Shown here piece by piece: positions 10,191 through 32,241 of a DNA stretch of 33,821 nucleotides. Every line of letters starts with the position of its first letter. Within the stretch, counting starts at the first letter, position 1. The stretch covers positions 1-33,821 of the forward strand of contig WIXG01000599.1 in NCBI GenBank assembly GCA_009869945.1, in the 5' to 3' direction. The notes under the pieces are model-generated. The model had not been told where the DNA came from and searched no databases. It saw only the letters and a list, made by a program, of their open reading frames with translations. The DNA comes from Mesaphorura yosii (lineage: Eukaryota > Arthropoda > Collembola > Poduromorpha > Tullbergiidae). The translations under genes were made by a program, and so were the position numbers.

Positions 10191-11552
10191 TTACCCAAAT
10201 GAAAAAGTACATTTAAACAAGATTGCTTTATCAGCGACCACACACCAGAACTGAAGCACGACCAATTCTTGTAAGAAATAGAGACCCGCTGCGCTGATCC
10301 GAATTGGGCATAGTGTCCTAACCACGCGTTTCTCTATCTCAAAATGTTTCTGGGTACCAAAGTGACCATGCGTTTGTCGGTGCTGGTGCTCATGACTCGC
10401 CGTAAACAAGCTTCTGAGGTACTGAACGCGCCATGTTTGAAGTAGGACCTTGCTTTGCATATAAGTGGCTTCAAATGCTTGTAGGATGAATGTCGCATAA
10501 ACACCAACTGTCGTGAAGATGGCTCCAACTAACAAACGTTCGAACACTGAGCCTCTGGTGTGGTGCCTGATGCAAAGTACACGAAGTAGAAATGGTTCGA
10601 CAATTATACTCACGACTGCTCCTCCATAAGCTATCATGTGTGAATAAGTTTGGAAAATTATCTTGCACATTAAAAACACAGTTTTGTAAGTCTTGATTGC
10701 ATGTTGTGGATGTCTCATCGAATCGATGTTCGATTTTATTTGCCAGTCGTCCACCAAACTGCAGAACAACATATGCCATAGAGTTTTTTCTGATTATGTT
10801 CAAGTCAATCGTACTTACCTGATCTTATTCCGCAGTACATGATTGCCGTACAACGCCATTGTCCCCGTGGTCATTACAAACATTAGTATACGATGTACAA
10901 GCCCAAATCCAAAATACATGTAACTCAAGATGATTCTAACAACTTCAAAACCAACAAACACCCATGGCAGTTGAAATGGCAAAACTGATTGGAGAAGTTG
11001 GTGAAATTCCAGTACTAATGCTACGACAGAATGGTAATAAAGTGGCCATGAACAAATGGCAACAATTGGTGCCCATTTTAATGAGCCGTGCAGAATTTTG
11101 AGCATCTGAAGAAGTATCACCCGAACTGTCTCATCTTTTCGTTTCTCTTCCACGTCGGTGGCTGCATTCATTTCAGATTCTGCAATCTTCTTGCTGAGCA
11201 TTATGAATGAATTAATGACCGAAACAATATCTTGACGACAGTTCCAGTGGATATGATCCATGAGCATGAGAACTGGATTGAAGAGGCTTATGAGGAGAAG
11301 AAACAAGACAAATGTTGGTGTGACATGCTCGTTCTTGTGCAGAATCCTCCAACCAAGCCAAGTACCGAAGATGGTTGTCAGTAGCCAAACCACGCCAAAG
11401 ACACGGTTCAACATGAAGTGAAGGTAGAATAATGTCGAATGAATCCATCTCATACGACGTTTCCTTACACTGAATGCAAATGGTGACACACCACTGAATC
11501 TGTTGAATTTTTGCATCTTGGCTAAATACTCAAATACTTCCTTCTCAAACAT
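10191..11552 (-). CDS. Gustatory-receptor-like seven-transmembrane protein (two exons)
   Basis: Exons 11552-10819 and 10758-10191 are joined by a 60-bp intron (AG|GTAAGTAC ... TTCTGCAG|T). The split codon AG+T keeps the frame and gives 433 residues. Hydrophobic segments are spread along the chain, for example HFMLNRVFGVVWLLTTIFGT, FVLFLLLISLFNPVLML and LLVGAIFTTVGVYATFILQ. The C-terminus RTLCPIRISAAGLYFLQE is the GR-type signature and is close to that of the broken GR at 3415. The coding DNA is AT-rich. The complete frame and clean intron suggest a working receptor. Its ligand cannot be told from sequence. Confidence 0.85.
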
Positions 11553-12548: not shown

Positions 12549-12554
12549 TTTTAT
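12549..12554 (-). terminator. AATAAA overlapping the ribB stop codon
   Basis: The minus strand reads CAATAAAAG, where TAA is the ribB stop and AATAAA surrounds it. A eukaryotic polyadenylation signal therefore overlaps the end of this bacterial-type gene. Confidence 0.6.
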
Positions 12555-13171
12555 TGGAATTTATGGCGTATCAGATCTTGAATTGTAATCAGCTTCAGGT
12601 TATGCTGGTCAGCAAACTCTGCGCATTCCTTCAGTCGCTTCATCGTACCATCCGGATTCATGAGCTCCCCGATTAGGGCGACGGGCGGGTCGATTCCTGC
12701 AAGGTAACACAGCTCCACTGCTGCCTCAGTATGTCCAGCACGCTCCAGAACCCCACCTGCTCGAGCAATGAGCGGAAAGATGTGACCAGGCCTGCGTAGC
12801 TCCGTCGGTGTACAATTGGTGGCTCCGAGCCGCTGGAGGGTCAGAGCGCGATCGATTGCGCTGACGCCCATAGGTATTCTGTCGGCAGCGTCAGTACTTA
12901 CCGTGAAGCTCGTTCAATGCAACTCTGTATTCGACTCCGACTCCACCATCAACGGAAGCTCGAGCTCTACAGCACGCTTTGCTGTCATTGGTGCGCAAAG
13001 TATCCCTGATGTGTGACGAATGTAGAAGGCCACCTGGGTGGATGTGGCACCAGCGGCGGCCATGACGAGGTCACCCTCGTTCTCACGGTCCTCGTTGTCC
13101 ATCACTATCACTAATTTCCCATCACGGATGTCGGCCACGGCGGCTGGAGTTGTGTCAAAGTATGTAGCCAT
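12551..13171 (-). pseudogene. ribB: Bacterial-type 3,4-dihydroxy-2-butanone 4-phosphate synthase with one in-frame stop
   Basis: RibB converts ribulose 5-phosphate to 3,4-dihydroxy-2-butanone 4-phosphate in riboflavin synthesis, a pathway animals normally lack. The frame from the ATG at 13171 covers the whole domain without introns. It shows DNEDRENEGDLVMAA (metal and substrate loop), IRHTSGILCAPM, then NTELH, an in-frame TGA at 12914-12916, then TSFTVSTDAAD, GVSAIDRA, RRPGHIFPL, AGGVLERAGHTEAA and GELMNPDGTM, ending with TIQDLI. About 206 codons is normal for bacterial RibB. The bacterial ending (NPDGTM ... ITIQDL) speaks for bacterial rather than fungal origin. The TTG before ISA in most RibB is PMG here. 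A GTAAGT lies just after the TGA, but the frame continues through it with family-like residues, so splicing is not needed. Either a single-nonsense pseudogene or a readthrough case. Confidence 0.88.
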
Positions 13172-14489: not shown

Positions 14490-15895
14490 TCAGCCATAAG
14501 CAGAGGTCACAATATCTACTGGATCCGATCCATCAAAACCAAATACATCCTGTGAATTCGATTGAAAGTAGAATTTTTTCGCCATCTCATTCAATCCATC
14601 GCGGACTGAATCGAATTGGGACATCCAAATCAGCTGCTTTAGCCCGGCGTTGAGTGCGCTCTCCGTAATCGAGAGCCGAGCCCTCACATTCGTCGCTCGG
14701 ACGCCCATAAATTCTTCCAGTATCAAAATAATGAACTGTTCCTTTCTCATAAATTGTCCTATGCGTCCCGATCCAAAAATTGCTTCAATAAATCCGGTGA
14801 AGAATGCTTCCCATAAAATCTTGCCGTCATGTCCAAACTGGAACATGCTCGGGACAAAATAAGTCTCGTAGAGTTCTCGATAATATTCTCGGGTCCCTCC
14901 AAGGCCTCCAGGCTGCAGTGCAACGTTGTACTCATCTTCCATTCCCATCGCATAGCCCAAAACTGCCCAAAAATGGTTAAAAGCCTCAAACTCTTCGTCA
15001 CTGGCTCCATGAATTCCACACGCTTCAGGGAACAACACCTGCGGCCCGCCAAGCATCCACTGCGTTAGGCTCATTGATAAGTGACTCATCGGCTTCACAC
15101 CAGCTTTCCTAAGCTTAACCGCCTCAGGATATTCACGAAACTCCTTCGGAATGGTGGAAGCCTCCAAATCTTGGCGCACAGCCTCCCAAAATTCTGTGTC
15201 AGGCTCCTGCCGATCAGGTGAACCTTTTGCGGCCTCCGTTGGAACTTTACGCTTGAGTTGGTTAATAATTTGATGATGAATGCCACGAACGTTGAGCAGA
15301 CTCTCAAGAATCAGGGAATTGACTCCGGGCTCCGTCTGCTCGGCCTCGGGCTCCGCCAGAATCTCAAACCAGAGTTTCATGTGAAGCATTGTTGCTAAGT
15401 AACGTCGATTGGATCGTGACGCCGTATCCGATTTGTTTGTGCTCATGAGAACAGGGACAATGTCTGGAAAACTGGTGAACATTGAAAGTGCCAAAATTGG
15501 ACCATAAAATTGTGAGTAAAAATATTTGGTTGCAAATTTCTGGCCAGCTTCAAAGGAGGTTGCATTGAACCATGAAGGCAACTGGCTCGAGCGTTTTGCG
15601 GATACGCCACTGAATGACTGACCTTCGTAAAGAAGTTCGACTGGTCTTGCACAACTAATCGCAGGCCTGCCAAAAAATAAATCCGCAAGTTAGTGCATAA
15701 ATCCTGAATACTGCTACTTTGACAGCATGGTTGTTAACTTCTGACTTACTTTTCCAATGCATTACTGGCCTCATCCCACGGCGTACACGGAGCCTCCGGA
15801 TTTTTGCCCTGTGCCACTTGCAGGCAGCCTAACACCAAGCAAAGGACGCAGGTGGTTAGGACTTGAATTTGCAGTTTTGTTGTCCAGCACCACAT
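14490..15895 (-). CDS. Secreted DUF2236 / MpaB-like oxygenase family protein (two exons)
   Basis: Exon 1 (15895-15750) begins MWCWTTKLQIQVLTTCVLCL, a signal peptide, and ends in a split lysine codon. An 83-bp intron (GTAAGTC...TTTTTTGGCAG) leads to exon 2 (15666-14490). The joined frame is continuous and gives 440 residues. The body fits the ER-bound oxygenase MpaB / latex-clearing-protein family. NRRYLATMLHMKLWFE lies near residue 135, VRGIHHQ near 177 (the family has an R-x-x-H type heme-ligand motif), and FNHFWAVLGYAMGMEDEYN near 278. Known family members are heme b proteins; some cleave C-C double bonds with oxygen. The animal substrate is unknown. AATAAA follows at 14452. Homologs are patchy in animals and common in fungi and bacteria, so an old transfer is possible, though the intron shows long residence. 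Confidence 0.75.
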
Positions 15896-18940: not shown

Positions 18941-20917
18941 TTATGAATCTGAAGCCAAATCTACAAAAGAAATCTTATCACTCAATCGATTCTCAGTCGT
19001 CGACTGACCTTTAAACCGCCCGTAGCCTCCAAGGATGTAAATCCGGTTCAGCCTCGACACATAAACACATGCAGTCATGTCTAGATTCGTGGGCCAGACG
19101 TCAACTCGGATTTCTTCAGCTTGTAGAGTTACAAGGTTGAACATGACAAGGTCACGACCGCCACTGATAATGTACGCCGACGCTGATTGGTTATCTCCAA
19201 CTGCCACCTTCACAGCGCAAGGATTGCCGGCATCATGAGGCAAGGATGATGCCTCTGAAGGAAGTCTGGTCACTTTTTCTTTGGCAGCAGGGTCGAATTG
19301 CAAAATCTGGCGTTTTGCTTGCTTCGTAGCACCAAAAATGTAGGCTACGGCGCTTTTTGGGTCCCAAATTGCTGCTGCTTGATACCCAGCATCTGATAAA
19401 TCTGCAATATGGTCGATTTGATTGCTTGTTACATTGTAACGCAGTACAAAATCTTCGTGGTAATGCAATGTTGGACCATTAGCATTGCCAAACAGATACG
19501 CGATGGCGCTAACGTCATCCCACGCCACTGCCATGGTCTCAATGACCACAGGAAATGTGGCCAGTAACGTGAAATTGTTGGCGGTCGTCGAATAACTGTA
19601 AATCCCCGCCCGCTCTCGGGGTAGACCCACGAAGAAGATGATTTCTTGCCCTTCGTTCGTAATTGTGGCTGCCCCCAGTACGGAGCCTGACAGGAACCTG
19701 CCCACAACTTCCACAGCTCCTGACCCAATGGAATATTTCACCACTTTGCCATCGTGGTCTTTTTTGCTAGTGCTGCCCCAATCGTCTGCTTCTCCGCCAA
19801 TCACGTAAATCGAGTCACGTCCATCGTACAAAGCTTGATGAAGTCGAATTCGGTTTGGAAGTCGTGAATTCGTGACTGTAAATTTCAAATTTCGCTTTAC
19901 CCTGGGCCGCGGCTCTATTTTTGGCAGCTGGATGTAAGAAATACGTTGCCGAATTCGACTTTGTTCTTGTCGAAACTTTCCTGAACCCCCGACGATGTAA
20001 ATACGGTGCATTGCGGGTACGTAAGCGCAGGAGCTTCGGAAAAGGACGTTGGGCCAATCGTAAACGTGGACAGTGTCCAGGACAGGCTGTTGGCCGGAAG
20101 ACCAAGCGGGGTCAAATCGGAAGAGGTCACTGCTTCCAGCTATGTAGACGCTTCCCATTTCCTCCATGACAGCTACTGCACATGGAAATTCGACTCCATA
20201 CGGAAACGAAGCTCCTTCCGGCAGTTTTAGGAAGTGTTTCGTCAAAGGATCGTACTGCAATACATCCAATTTCCACGCGAACCTCGAATAACCTCCAAAT
20301 ACGTACGCAACTTGCCGATGCGGATCCCAAATGGCCCCTGCCCACGTCCTGCCACCCTCAGGAAGCTCTACGCCATGTATTTTGTGAGCTTGGTTCGTGT
20401 CGACGTTGTATTGCAGGATTTGTTTTGAAAACGATCCATTTCCCGCGTAGCCACCAAACAAGTACGCCATCTGGTTGCGGTTGTCATAAGCAATTGCGAT
20501 GCCAGTCAAAGCTTCAGGCAATGATACCAGTTGCGTGTAGTTGCGTGCACTTATCGAAAAGCTGTACACAATTTCACTGTATCCTTGCCCGCGAACGTAG
20601 CCGCCAAAGTACAAAATATTGCCCGCATTCAAGATGGCTGCGCCTGAAATTACGTTGATGAAGCGTCCAACTTTCTCCACTATCGTTGAATTTGTGCCAA
20701 GTTCACATTTAAGCACGGTGTCTTGATACTGCGTCTCATTGCGTCCGCCAATAATATACAAAGAATTTGTGATTGGATCATGCACCACTGCATGAGACTC
20801 GCGTGACGACGGAAGTGGCCACGTCGTCTCAACCCGAAACGTTTCTTCTTGGTTCTCCACAACTGCTGCTGCTGCTGCGAGTAAGCTCAAAACCAAAGTC
20901 GCCCATATCTTCTTCAT
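18941..20917 (-). CDS. Secreted protein with two six-bladed kelch propellers
   Basis: 658 residues from the ATG at 20917. I chose it over the upstream ATG at 20968 because it opens a clean signal peptide (MKKIWATLVLSLLAAAAAVV) and because a TATA/TCAGT promoter places transcription start near 20940. The chain holds about twelve kelch-type blades. The first six include SLYIIGGRN, ILYFGGYVRG, MAYLFGGYAGN, VAYVFGGYSRF and RIYIVGGSGKF. After a linker (PRPRVKRNLKF) a second set includes SIYVIGGEADD, IAYLFGNANG, VAYIFGATKQ, SAYIISGGRD and RIYILGGYGRF. The last blade of each half aligns, so the propeller was duplicated internally. Many N-x-S/T sites fit secretion. There are no introns. A related propeller is at 29079. 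Function unknown; binding of an extracellular ligand or cell-surface receptor is a reasonable guess. Confidence 0.85.
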   Translation of the reverse strand: MKKIWATLVLSLLAAAAAVVENQEETFRVETTWPLPSSRESHAVVHDPITNSLYIIGGRNETQYQDTVLKCELGTNSTIVEKVGRFINVISGAAILNAGNILYFGGYVRGQGYSEIVYSFSISARNYTQLVSLPEALTGIAIAYDNRNQMAYLFGGYAGNGSFSKQILQYNVDTNQAHKIHGVELPEGGRTWAGAIWDPHRQVAYVFGGYSRFAWKLDVLQYDPLTKHFLKLPEGASFPYGVEFPCAVAVMEEMGSVYIAGSSDLFRFDPAWSSGQQPVLDTVHVYDWPNVLFRSSCAYVPAMHRIYIVGGSGKFRQEQSRIRQRISYIQLPKIEPRPRVKRNLKFTVTNSRLPNRIRLHQALYDGRDSIYVIGGEADDWGSTSKKDHDGKVVKYSIGSGAVEVVGRFLSGSVLGAATITNEGQEIIFFVGLPRERAGIYSYSTTANNFTLLATFPVVIETMAVAWDDVSAIAYLFGNANGPTLHYHEDFVLRYNVTSNQIDHIADLSDAGYQAAAIWDPKSAVAYIFGATKQAKRQILQFDPAAKEKVTRLPSEASSLPHDAGNPCAVKVAVGDNQSASAYIISGGRDLVMFNLVTLQAEEIRVDVWPTNLDMTACVYVSRLNRIYILGGYGRFKGQSTTENRLSDKISFVDLASDS

Positions 20918-20937
20918 TGTCTTGATGCTGAGTAAAC

Positions 20938-20974
20938 ACTGAGTCTTTTTGCTCACTTTTTTGTGCAATATAAA
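20938..20974 (-). promoter_or_regulatory. Core promoter of the kelch gene (TATA + TCAGT initiator)
   Basis: The minus strand carries TTTATAT at 20974-20968 and an arthropod-type initiator TCAGT at 20942-20938, about 32 bp apart. The predicted start is at 20940, between the stop of the upstream kinase gene (21005) and the kelch ATG at 20917. Confidence 0.6.
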
Positions 20975-29078: not shown

Positions 29079-30485
29079 ATGCGGGGAGAACTTCGTTTCA
29101 ATCCTACAAATAAATATCATAGTCAAAATCGCAATCTAGTGAGTCAACGAATGGAACCAAACGGGAAGAGTTGGACCCTCACAAAGACACAAATCCCAGG
29201 TGGTCTCAAACCTGGCATTGCATTTTACGATGGTATCGATTCCATTTACATGTTTGGTGGATTTGATGGTCGTGGACGTAAAAATACACAAATTTTCAAG
29301 TATAACGTGAAGAGTGACGACGTTAACGCAGTCACAGTTTGTGGGGAATTTAAATTACCAACGTTTGGAGCGGGATTTCTGTACGGTGACAAATTGTACT
29401 ATTTGGGAGGTCAATCAGAAGACTTTCAATATGTTTGGCGTATCCACACGTACTCCCTATCAACTGGTAAACAACAACAGGTCGTGCCATTCTTACCAGT
29501 CAAAATGAAAGACATGGCATCAGCATGGGATGGAGCCAACAAAGTGTTGTACACATTAGGTGGGTATAATGGTGTCAGACTGAACCTTATATACAAATAC
29601 AATCCATTTCATGATCGAGCACAAAAAGTAGGCGTACTACCAGAAGGCAGGCAATGTGCGAATGCAGTTTGGTGTCGCGTTGATGGAAATATTTACATAA
29701 TTGGTGGACTTGCAGATGATATTGATTGCAGCATTTCGTATCGAGAGATCCTACGATTTGACACGACCACAAATAAGACAACGAGACTTGCCACTGAATT
29801 ACCACACGAAATGGGCCATTCGAGCCAACATTTAGCGTACTCCGATGGTGATAAGCATGTGTACATATTTCATTTTCGCGGTCTCATGAAATTTAACCCT
29901 TTAACTGGACAAGTTACGAAAGTAGACGTAGATTCATCGTGGCCCACAGAAATCCGTGACGTGAACTGTGTATATCTGAATCAATTGAATAGGATTTATT
30001 TGCTGGGTACGAGCGCCAGATTTAAAGGGCAATCCCCGTCTGAATACGGGCGCCATGATGAAGTTGTGTTTGTGCAGCTGAAGAACGAGACGACAGCTCG
30101 TGATAGGAATAACCACACCGTCATTTCAAGGCCTGAGACTGGAAAACCAGCGTCACCTTCTGAGATAACGACGAAGATTTCAGCAGCCGTCAGCAACGCT
30201 CCGATAAGAATTGAGAATCAAGACTTGCACCAGATCGCCATGAAGCTTCTTGACAATGTAGCCGTTGTAAATAGTTTAACAATGCTTTACGGAGAACTTG
30301 GATTGCCTCTAGCCGCATGCCATTCGCTACGAAAATTGTATCCTCTTGATTATGATTTCCTCATTAATATGCTAGCAAAATGGCTGGAATTAAAGAGTGA
30401 TGAAGCTACATGGAATGCATTAATTAACGCTTTAACGAGTTGTAGGCTACATGACGGAGCCAGTAAGTTACGATGGAATTCGTAA
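29079..30485 (+). CDS. Kelch propeller fused to a Death-like domain, intracellular
   Basis: 468 residues, no signal peptide or membrane segment. Blades run from about residue 45 to 340: SIYMFGGFDG, KLYYLGGQSED, VLYTLGGYNG, NIYIIGGLADD, HVYIFHFRG and RIYLLGTSARFKGQS, which is one six-bladed propeller. The last blade is very close to the final blade of the secreted kelch protein (RIYILGGYGRFKGQS), so the two are paralogs. After a polar linker, residues about 380-465 look like a Death-fold domain: helical, with LYGELGLPLAACHSL, MLAKWLELKSDEATWNALIN and ALTSCRLHDGASKL, matching the family pattern L-x-x-x-L-G-L, M-L-x-x-W, A-T-x-x-x-L-x-x-A-L. A GTAAGT at 30464 could be a donor, but no good following exon was found. 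It may link substrate binding to apoptosis or immune signalling; this is inference. Confidence 0.78.
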   Translation: MRGELRFNPTNKYHSQNRNLVSQRMEPNGKSWTLTKTQIPGGLKPGIAFYDGIDSIYMFGGFDGRGRKNTQIFKYNVKSDDVNAVTVCGEFKLPTFGAGFLYGDKLYYLGGQSEDFQYVWRIHTYSLSTGKQQQVVPFLPVKMKDMASAWDGANKVLYTLGGYNGVRLNLIYKYNPFHDRAQKVGVLPEGRQCANAVWCRVDGNIYIIGGLADDIDCSISYREILRFDTTTNKTTRLATELPHEMGHSSQHLAYSDGDKHVYIFHFRGLMKFNPLTGQVTKVDVDSSWPTEIRDVNCVYLNQLNRIYLLGTSARFKGQSPSEYGRHDEVVFVQLKNETTARDRNNHTVISRPETGKPASPSEITTKISAAVSNAPIRIENQDLHQIAMKLLDNVAVVNSLTMLYGELGLPLAACHSLRKLYPLDYDFLINMLAKWLELKSDEATWNALINALTSCRLHDGASKLRWNS

Positions 30486-30793: not shown

Positions 30794-31041
30794 TGTCTGT
30801 CATTGCCATTGCTCTGACGCGGCTGCACTGCGCACGACACCGACGGGGAAACCGGCTCCTGAGCCACAGTTAAGCCAGGCCACTGGCCATTGGCCGCTCA
30901 CACTGGCGCTGTGACGGTGTTTGGCCGTGGCACTGACAAAAGCTGAGGATAAAGAGCTCAAGACATCACTCACCTGTCAAGTGTCACCGTTTAGTACGTC
31001 AACTCACGCGCATGCCTCACGCGAGCACGGAATCCCGATTT
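30794..31041. promoter_or_regulatory. Divergent intergenic region
   Basis: The 250 bp between the small minus-strand gene and the TATA box of the M28 peptidase gene should contain both promoters. It is GC-richer than its left side and contains repeated CACTGGC/CACTGAC words, without a clear palindrome. Confidence 0.4.
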
Positions 31042-31047
31042 TATAAA
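31042..31047 (+). promoter_or_regulatory. TATA box of the M28 peptidase gene
   Basis: TATAAA in GATTTTATAAAGC, 66 bp upstream of the ATG at 31108. Transcription would start near 31072, which rules out the in-frame ATG at 31012 as the translation start. Confidence 0.7.
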
Positions 31048-31107
31048 GCTGACGGGCAAACCAGCTGGCCAGCACCATTTCGCTTTTGCTCCAATTCCCG
31101 CTCAGCG

Positions 31108-32241
31108 ATGCATTCTGCTCTTTTCCTCGCCTTCGGGCTCGCGCTCGCCGTCGCCGTCGTCGCCGTGCCCCCACCCGACTACGCGCAGCAAGTCGCTGCG
31201 GGGAAGCGCCTGATTCAAACCAGCGAGGAGGGCGCCCCCGTCTGGATGACTGAGCTGCAAGTGGAGAAGCTCATACAAGAGGACCTGATTCACTTCATGG
31301 ACATCACCGACCACCCCGAAAAGCCCGCCATCAACCACCCCCACGCGATCGGGACCTTCGACTTCCCCCCACAGCTTTTCTACCAGCGCGTGGTCGCCGA
31401 AATCACGCCCCGCCTCTCCGCCGCCCGCATGGAGGCCTTCATTGAGGAGTTCAGTTCCTTCAACAACCGGTACTACAACTCGGCAACGGGACGCCAGAGC
31501 TCCGAGTGGCTGCAGGGAGTCGTGCAGTCCGTGCTTGACGACGCCGTCGCGGGCGGGTACACGGGCACCGTCTCCGTGGCTGCCGTGACCCACTCATGGC
31601 CACAGAACAGCGTCGTGGCCCGTATCGAAGGCTCCGACCCTGTGCAGAAAGAGCAGATCCTCATCCTTGGTGCGCACCAGGACTCCATTAACTCAGGCTC
31701 ACCCGCCAACGGTAATGCACCCGGCGCGGACGACGACGGCTCTGGCTGTGCTGTGCTGCTCGAAGTCCTCCGCGCCCTGCTCGAGTCGGGCTTCGTCCCC
31801 CGCCGCACGATTGAGTTTCAGTGGTACGCCGCGGAGGAGGTGGGACTCCGAGGTTCGCTGGACATCGCTCAGGACTACAATCGACGCGGCGTGGACGTCG
31901 TGAGCATGATGCAGTTTGACGTGGTCGGCTACAGCGTCGGCCGGCGCGAAATCGGGATCATCACCGACTTCACCGACGCGGCCGCAAATGTGTTCCTCAG
32001 GAAGATCGTTGACGAGTACTGCACGTACAGCTGGACGAACCTCCAGTGCGGCTACGGCTGCTCCGACCACGCGTCCTGGTACCGCACCGGCTACACAGCG
32101 TCCATGCCCGTCGAAGTCGTTTTCTTCCCGTCCATGCACACTGTGCGCGATGTCATCGCCGTCGTCGACTTTGACCAAATGATGGAATTTGCAAAGCTCG
32201 CGGTTGGCCATTCAGTCGAGCTTGGCTTGAGCACCATGTAA
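31108..32241 (+). CDS. Secreted M28 family zinc aminopeptidase
   Basis: 377 residues from the ATG at 31108, which opens a signal peptide (MHSALFLAFGLALAVAVVAV). The first 110 or so residues form a propeptide-like region. The catalytic domain shows all M28 zinc ligands and catalytic acids: His190 in LGAHQDS, Asp208 in PGADDDGSG, Glu243/Glu244 in AAEEVGLRGS, Asp271 in QFDVVGY and His344 in FPSMHTVRD. CGYGCSDHASWYRTGY is the typical cysteine-containing loop of the M28E leucine-aminopeptidase type (Vibrio and fungal Lap). It should cleave N-terminal residues from peptides outside the cell, for example in digestion. The gene has no introns and is strongly GC-rich. The family is most abundant in fungi and bacteria, so transfer is possible, but animals also have M28 proteins. 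Confidence 0.9.
   Translation: MHSALFLAFGLALAVAVVAVPPPDYAQQVAAGKRLIQTSEEGAPVWMTELQVEKLIQEDLIHFMDITDHPEKPAINHPHAIGTFDFPPQLFYQRVVAEITPRLSAARMEAFIEEFSSFNNRYYNSATGRQSSEWLQGVVQSVLDDAVAGGYTGTVSVAAVTHSWPQNSVVARIEGSDPVQKEQILILGAHQDSINSGSPANGNAPGADDDGSGCAVLLEVLRALLESGFVPRRTIEFQWYAAEEVGLRGSLDIAQDYNRRGVDVVSMMQFDVVGYSVGRREIGIITDFTDAAANVFLRKIVDEYCTYSWTNLQCGYGCSDHASWYRTGYTASMPVEVVFFPSMHTVRDVIAVVDFDQMMEFAKLAVGHSVELGLSTM

Follow-up and report, generated by a model that had tools for sequence, protein, structure and literature searches.

Introduction

An intact RibB converts ribulose 5-phosphate to DHBP and formate, as described in PMC5228156, and animals are described as being without riboflavin synthesis in PMC10366380. 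Riboflavin genes have been reported from insect nuclei, namely ribC in psyllids and ribA and ribD in the mealybug Planococcus citri (PMC5664097 and PMC7643613), and for the lone ribC of the psyllid Pachypsylla venusta it has been proposed that it is the remnant of a joint function with a symbiont that has since been lost (PMC5664097). Beta-lactam genes are known from springtails and one plectid nematode, according to PMC10531068, and the abstract on an enchytraeid worm likewise mentions isopenicillin (PMC8460440). Among the titles and abstract openings covered, with subscription journals outside the scope, we found no prior report of ribB in the nuclear genome of a springtail or any other animal.

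Here we describe a ribB frame from a springtail (Collembola), found in the stretch of DNA that we call the window. The window comprises contig C599 in full (33,821 bp), one of the 1127 contigs of an assembly of 93,006,257 bp. Judging from sequence comparison, we regard it as probable that this frame is a ribB copy that was acquired horizontally and died recently.

The ribB reading frame

The window frame consists of 206 codons and a stop and contains no introns and no frameshifts. Its features are as follows.

12551..13171, minus strand: putative ribB (DHBP synthase) pseudogene frame, by reading frame, Pfam and alignment
13169-13171, minus strand: start ATG, in agreement with MANFATIP and MSTFATIP, with which the two other copies begin
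12917..13171, minus strand: upstream half of 85 codons, the maximum expected from normal translation
12932..12943, minus strand: region with a two-residue insertion common to copy C543 and present in 0 of 219 relatives, its exact placing depending on the aligner
12914..12916, minus strand: in-frame TGA, codon 86 of 206, by reading frame
12869..12871, minus strand: Met codon replacing Thr107 (E. coli count), which is Thr108 in V. cholerae; candidate second lesion, by alignment, with Thr in 219 of 219 relatives
12551-12553, minus strand: terminal stop codon of the frame, by reading frame

Translated along the minus strand (13171 to 12551), the frame starts MATYFDTTPAAVADIRDGKLVIVMDNEDRENEGDLV, passes through RPGHIFPL and GHTE and ends LITIQDLIRHKFQ before the stop. 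The half upstream of the TGA matches positions 2-73 of the Pfam DHBP_synthase profile PF00926 (E 1.6e-25) and the half downstream of it positions 77-190 (E 1.3e-42), so that both halves are in register and far beyond chance, and the frame furthermore matches TIGR00506 and holds all three of the motifs DRENEGD, RPGHIFPL and GHTE. We can conclude that the frame is RibB over its whole length, with a domain that is complete apart from the TGA and is for that reason not contained whole in one open frame. A first-pass annotation of the window had claimed this frame, its coordinates, its RibB identity with the three motifs and the TGA, all of which agree with what we find when the reading frame is checked, the minus strand being our addition.

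A GTAAGT string resembling a splice donor occurs within the frame just past the TGA (12895-12904, minus strand), and the protein alignment contains no insertion matching an intron at this string, so that no intron is suggested. Splicing around the TGA was considered and rejected on the ground that cutting out the stop would also cut out conserved active-site residues, a matter judged by eye and not computed.

Lesions of the window copy

The alignment comprises the three copies found in the assembly and 219 relatives, these being the domains of the matches listed by two RibB protein searches together with six PDB chains, with P0123, P0124, P0241 and P0242, and also exact duplicates, left out; as top matches the 219 are biased towards close relatives. 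In 51 columns at least 97% of the residues are the same, and the window copy differs at four of these, carrying D34N (Asp in 215 of the 219), A94S (Ala in 218), T107M (Thr in all 219) and D159E (Asp in 216). Between 0 and 2 such departures are seen in 213 of the 219 relatives and three in P0002 and in the E. coli chain, while four other PDB chains, those of V. cholerae, M. tuberculosis, M. grisea and C. albicans, in that order, have 4, 5, 7 and 8. Four departures are therefore not extreme, since active enzymes of the PDB have 3, 4, 5, 7 and 8 of them, and only the invariant Thr is telling. The column preceding it holds Thr or Ser in 205 of the 219 relatives and Pro in the window copy. Nine active-site positions are kept, namely Arg37, Glu38, Glu40, Asp42, His136, Arg150, His153, Thr154 and Glu174 (E. 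coli count).

The counterpart of this Thr in the V. cholerae enzyme, Thr108, is termed strictly conserved in a passage of PMC5228156, where exchange of Thr for Ser at the same position is also reported to abolish the activity of the M. jannaschii enzyme, the V. cholerae results of the authors themselves being simulations. The mapping of Thr107 in the E. coli count to Thr108 is our own and uses a one-residue shift via the TTGVSA motif. By this alignment Thr107 is the predicted active-site Thr and the Met in its place a second lesion of the window copy. The claim of the first-pass annotation that the gene is whole except for one TGA thus holds for the frame and fails for the enzyme, whose Thr107 column is Thr in every relative and Met here. 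Furthermore, the enzyme would not be a normal one even if the TGA were a sequencing error or were read through, because T107M remains, and to judge from these residues the window copy is very unlikely to work. Lesions predicted to abolish the product are accordingly of more than one kind, a stop and an invariant residue in this copy and frame breaks and truncation in the others described below, as is typically asked of a pseudogene. At most, the present locus would give a truncated and inactive product of 85 residues.

The column of the TGA is occupied in the 219 relatives by Arg (138), Gly (36), Cys (18), Gln (6) and others (21), in the 11 other full-length eukaryote-like rows by Gly (8), Cys (1), Ser (1) and Glu (1), and in copy C543 by Cys. 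The position had been described as often Arg or Gln in bacterial relatives; the CGA-to-TGA change drawn from it is not what the near relatives suggest, as these mostly have Gly and C543 has Cys, and a lost Arg at this column was rejected on the same ground. The N-T-E-L-H said to precede the column is found in 0 of the 11 bacterial-like rows listed, most of which have N-S-E-S-H or N-T-E-S-H.

The frame has a single stop in 206 codons, no frameshifts and a family-like sequence on both sides of the TGA, all of which would be expected if the gene were live and the TGA an error of sequencing or assembly, or if the TGA marked a polymorphic null allele. Such an account is however quite improbable, since it leaves in place a Met, outside the TGA codon, at a Thr that is invariant in all 219 relatives and is reported in a passage of PMC5228156 to be necessary for activity, and since both other copies found are broken and the remaining pathway was not found in the assembly as far as four families are concerned. 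That the TGA is read through, or that the half protein was kept for a new use, likewise draws on the family-like frame after the stop, but the stop and the Met both lie in the active-site part and the sister copies are broken as well, and we give this account hardly any credence. Neither of the two live-gene options of the first-pass annotation, error and readthrough, is thus favored.

Two further copies and the rest of the pathway

A profile search of the assembly with PF00926 finds three ribB places, on the window contig C599, on C543 and on C1089, and protein searches with the window copy, P0002 and C543 recover the same three. No fourth place was found with these three protein queries and the one family query, P0002 adding just a match on C33 with an E value of 0.43. 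The C543 copy retains 125 codons up to GHTE, where the family match stops, the 3' end being gone; its start MANFATIPEALADIAVGGIVVVLDDED is out of frame with the remainder, which amounts to a frame break, and Lys stands in place of its Glu40, a residue that all 219 relatives have. The C1089 copy retains about 60 codons, with a frame break following MSTFATIPKA and then sequence without family likeness, and has Ser for Asn39 in a column that is Asn in all 219. As judged from the alignment, all three copies found are damaged, each by different lesions; there may be an intact copy that the assembly does not include.

The frames around the C543 copy are of kelch, adhesion-GPCR and ABC-transporter type, and C1089 also bears a kinase piece and pieces of a nonribosomal peptide synthetase (NRPS), and the surroundings of both copies are host DNA. 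A segmental duplication of the region was considered and rejected, since comparison of the whole window with C543:2000-18000 and the whole of C1089 gives matches of only 106-132 bp, all of them within ribB.

Four other families of the riboflavin pathway gave no match in the assembly, namely lumazine synthase (PF00885; controls positive in 14 of 14 genomes), riboflavin synthase (PF00677; 11 of 14), GTP cyclohydrolase II (PF00925; 10 of 14) and RibD_C (PF01872; 14 of 14). In an animal without the remaining pathway DHBP has no known use in making riboflavin, and a working RibB would need uptake by a symbiont, a pathway since lost, or some other use of its product.

Relatives and origin

The closest database protein to the window copy, with 7999 candidates scored and the best 120 of them listed, is P0002, which is the hypothetical protein AAVH_36236 of the nematode Aphelenchoides avenae (58% identity). 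In the first set of proteins P0002 is also the closest to C543 (57%) and to C1089 (73% over 45 residues), while among 22 rows compared together C543 is marginally nearer to P0129 and P0130 (59%) than to P0002 (57%) or to the window copy (55%). Identity of the window copy to six solved enzymes is 42-48%, and a prokaryote genome collection holds five RibB loci with best-segment identities of 44-48%.

In a first tree, built from 74 of the 240 collected proteins, the window copy, C543 and P0002 fall in a group of 13 rows (support 99/94), and the same 13 rows are united (99/93) in a second tree of 39 of those rows and the six PDB chains, where two fungal chains adjoin the group with poor support (81/23). 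Labelled rows in the group are few, one being from a EukProt transcriptome, one from MERC, a eukaryote catalogue, and one from the nematode, and several others are long proteins whose RibB domain is preceded or followed by a GTP cyclohydrolase II domain. The window copy does not group with bacterial rows in either tree but stands among eukaryote-like ones, and the description of the gene as bacterial-type should therefore be given up. A eukaryotic source appears likely from this placement, and we infer that the gene came from a eukaryote (a protist or fungus), or from something sharing its RibB, rather than from a bacterium.

The RibB domain of P0002 is intact, and the protein is partial and ends at the end of a 3.6-kb contig. 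At residues 300-341 a lumazine-synthase-like domain seems to begin (PF00885, E 0.0099, below cut-off), which makes a RibB-RibH fusion possible by sequence. It had been held against a transferred RibB that the best matches might be to an animal family, and the top match is indeed a nematode protein, but AAVH_36236 is a RibB of the eukaryote-like group, does not belong to a native animal family and may have contaminated the A. avenae assembly.

Grouping with eukaryote-like rows and with a nematode row is also what would be expected if RibB had been retained from a eukaryote ancestor in a few animal lines. Such vertical inheritance would however require many parallel losses, animals being described as without riboflavin synthesis (PMC10366380), and no other gene of the pathway was found in the assembly among the four families searched, so that we consider it most improbable.

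Genomic setting

The cuticle family PF00379, which is typical of arthropods, has 66 matches in the assembly and none in 14 control genomes, all of them prokaryotes. The window contig itself carries animal-type kelch, tyrosine kinase and GH38 alpha-mannosidase frames, which links the ribB frame to the host, and the GC3 of ribB (0.57) lies within the range of ten other window frames (0.38-0.81). An intronless RibB gene in an animal contig may in itself raise the suspicion of bacterial contamination or of a chimeric contig. This is however exceedingly improbable here, since the window copy stands outside the bacterial part of the trees, since three copies are found on three contigs with animal-type kelch, adhesion-GPCR, ABC-transporter and kinase frames, since GC3 is in line with that of the neighbours, and since a contaminating bacterium with a riboflavin pathway would be expected to bring PF00885, PF00677, PF00925 and PF01872 along. 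The first-pass annotation had likewise placed the RibB in an animal contig, and the tree position, the two further copies on animal-type contigs and the missing pathway families are all in agreement with this.

The nearest neighbours of the frame are the following.

14490..15581, minus strand: upstream neighbour, 363-aa frame, no Pfam match
10815..11552, minus strand: downstream neighbour, 245-aa frame, nothing above cut-off in Pfam

The 363-aa frame has two relatives among 1489 candidates, a piece that is 97% identical (ENA contig) and one that is 42% identical (Logan contig). Elsewhere in the window, 31012-32241 (plus strand) holds a 409-aa secreted-looking M28 aminopeptidase frame, whose top NCBIfam match is the bacterial LapA (E 2.7e-50, below cut-off) and which to our mind resembles fungal leucyl aminopeptidases; it may be a further acquired gene. 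Kelch-repeat frames are found at 18941-20968 (minus strand), at 29079-30485 (plus strand) and at L014:1668-3965, two of them with secreted-looking starts, and the one at 29079-30485 has a weak C-terminal Death-domain match (E 0.0028, below cut-off).

It should also be mentioned that a beta-lactam-type gene set is found at C420:14344-33336 (L024-L026). It includes an open NRPS frame of 3156 aa with three condensation-domain matches, a frame at C420:14344-15279 that matches solved deacetoxycephalosporin C (DAOC) synthases with an E value of 1.8e-112, and, by eye only, a second frame like DAOC synthase at C420:15743-16762. Taken together with the cuticle family, such beta-lactam genes point very strongly to a springtail as the host. 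The NRPS pieces at C1089:1-8477 (L016), which lie beside the third ribB remnant, are broken and comprise an adenylation end, a carrier, a condensation and a thioesterase piece; in appearance they are a duplicate of the C420 NRPS that has decayed.

History of the copies

Nonsynonymous and synonymous differences were compared with the stop codons and the four codons before the C543 frame settles excluded. For the window copy and C543, compared over 120 codons, pS is 0.90 and pN 0.30, giving a ratio of 0.33 (bootstrap 0.25-0.41); the ratio is 0.29 (0.17-0.46) between the window copy and C1089 (42 codons) and 0.19 (0.10-0.33) between C543 and C1089 (35 codons). The copies are about 55% identical in protein and their synonymous sites are saturated, and since the proteins have stayed alike in spite of this saturation, the separation appears to have taken place mostly under selection. 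As far as these ratios go, the ancestors of the copies were long under selection, be it in the donor or in the springtail.

The window copy itself shows little decay of its frame. In a neutral-decay simulation of the ribB frame, which assumes one indel per ten substitutions, at most one stop and no indel remain in 55% of the runs at 0.01 changes per site, in 4% at 0.05 and in 0.25% at 0.08; by stops alone, 86% of the runs still pass at 0.05. Little frame decay suggests a young pseudogene, and under this model the window copy probably died only recently. The recently dead transfer was one of four options offered by the first-pass annotation and is the best of them.

The copies may be the descendants of one gene or of several. 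Separate transfers from related donors, dead on arrival, would place the constraint in the donors, and no copy would ever have worked in the springtail. This account would explain that the copies are so far apart, with saturated synonymous sites, that the three places are dissimilar outside ribB in the stretches compared, and that the four other pathway families searched, with which RibB could have had a function, yielded no gene. It is also consistent with the best trees, in which the window copy and C543 are not sisters; support for this is however weak, and a forced union of the two is not rejected (p-AU 0.396). The two-residue insertion that the window copy shares with C543 and with none of the 219 relatives argues on the other hand for a single ancestor, three independent uptakes of one gene are less simple, and an old copy that was dead on arrival should be more decayed than the window copy is. 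We therefore regard separate transfers as a serious yet unlikely account, and the best reading is that the three copies form a small horizontally acquired RibB family of which all copies found are broken.

In such a family, the intact ancestor would have been a DHBP synthase turning ribulose 5-phosphate into the four-carbon piece of riboflavin, a single ancestral gene would have been taken up and then duplicated in the springtail lineage, and the copies would have worked for long before their use was lost. A more specific proposal, which is speculative and on the whole rather doubtful, is that the springtail lineage long used a eukaryote-derived RibB without the rest of the pathway, for feeding a symbiont or for some other use of DHBP or the enzyme, that the related gene in a fungus-feeding nematode belongs to the same picture, and that the use was lost recently in this species. 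Whether ribB ever worked inside springtails is the interesting question. Springtail genomes numbered 134 as of April 2025, according to a passage of PMC12693562, and with these it could be possible to date the gain, the duplication and the loss and to test if an animal ever profited from a DHBP synthase on its own.

Comparison with known systems

The window ribB is like the DHBP synthases, that is bacterial RibB and fungal RIB3 (PF00926, TIGR00506), in the length of its domain, in the RENEGD acidic loop and in RPGHIFPL and GHTE, but differs from them by its in-frame stop, by having Met in place of the invariant active-site Thr and by lying in the genome of an arthropod where the other pathway families searched were not found. 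AAVH_36236 of A. avenae belongs to the same eukaryote-like group as the window copy, but its RibB domain is intact and its host is not certain. The beta-lactam genes of springtails and a plectid nematode are, like ribB, acquired microbial genes common to springtails and a soil nematode, but that set is reported to be in working order in PMC10531068, whereas the ribB described here is in all probability dead.

The acquired vitamin genes of arthropods are usually presented as gifts of bacteria by which the pathway of a symbiont is completed, whereas here a eukaryote-looking RibB stands without the four other pathway families searched and with all three copies found broken, and three broken copies expose the loss side of gene acquisition. 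As described in the papers on them, the psyllid and mealybug genes are, like the springtail ribB, riboflavin genes gained by an arthropod nucleus, and the psyllid ribC is moreover also a lone leftover; those genes are however bacterial and tied to symbionts, whereas the springtail ribB is eukaryote-like and present in three broken copies. The window ribB would thus be a vestige like the ribC of psyllids, one step further on in that it is probably dead.
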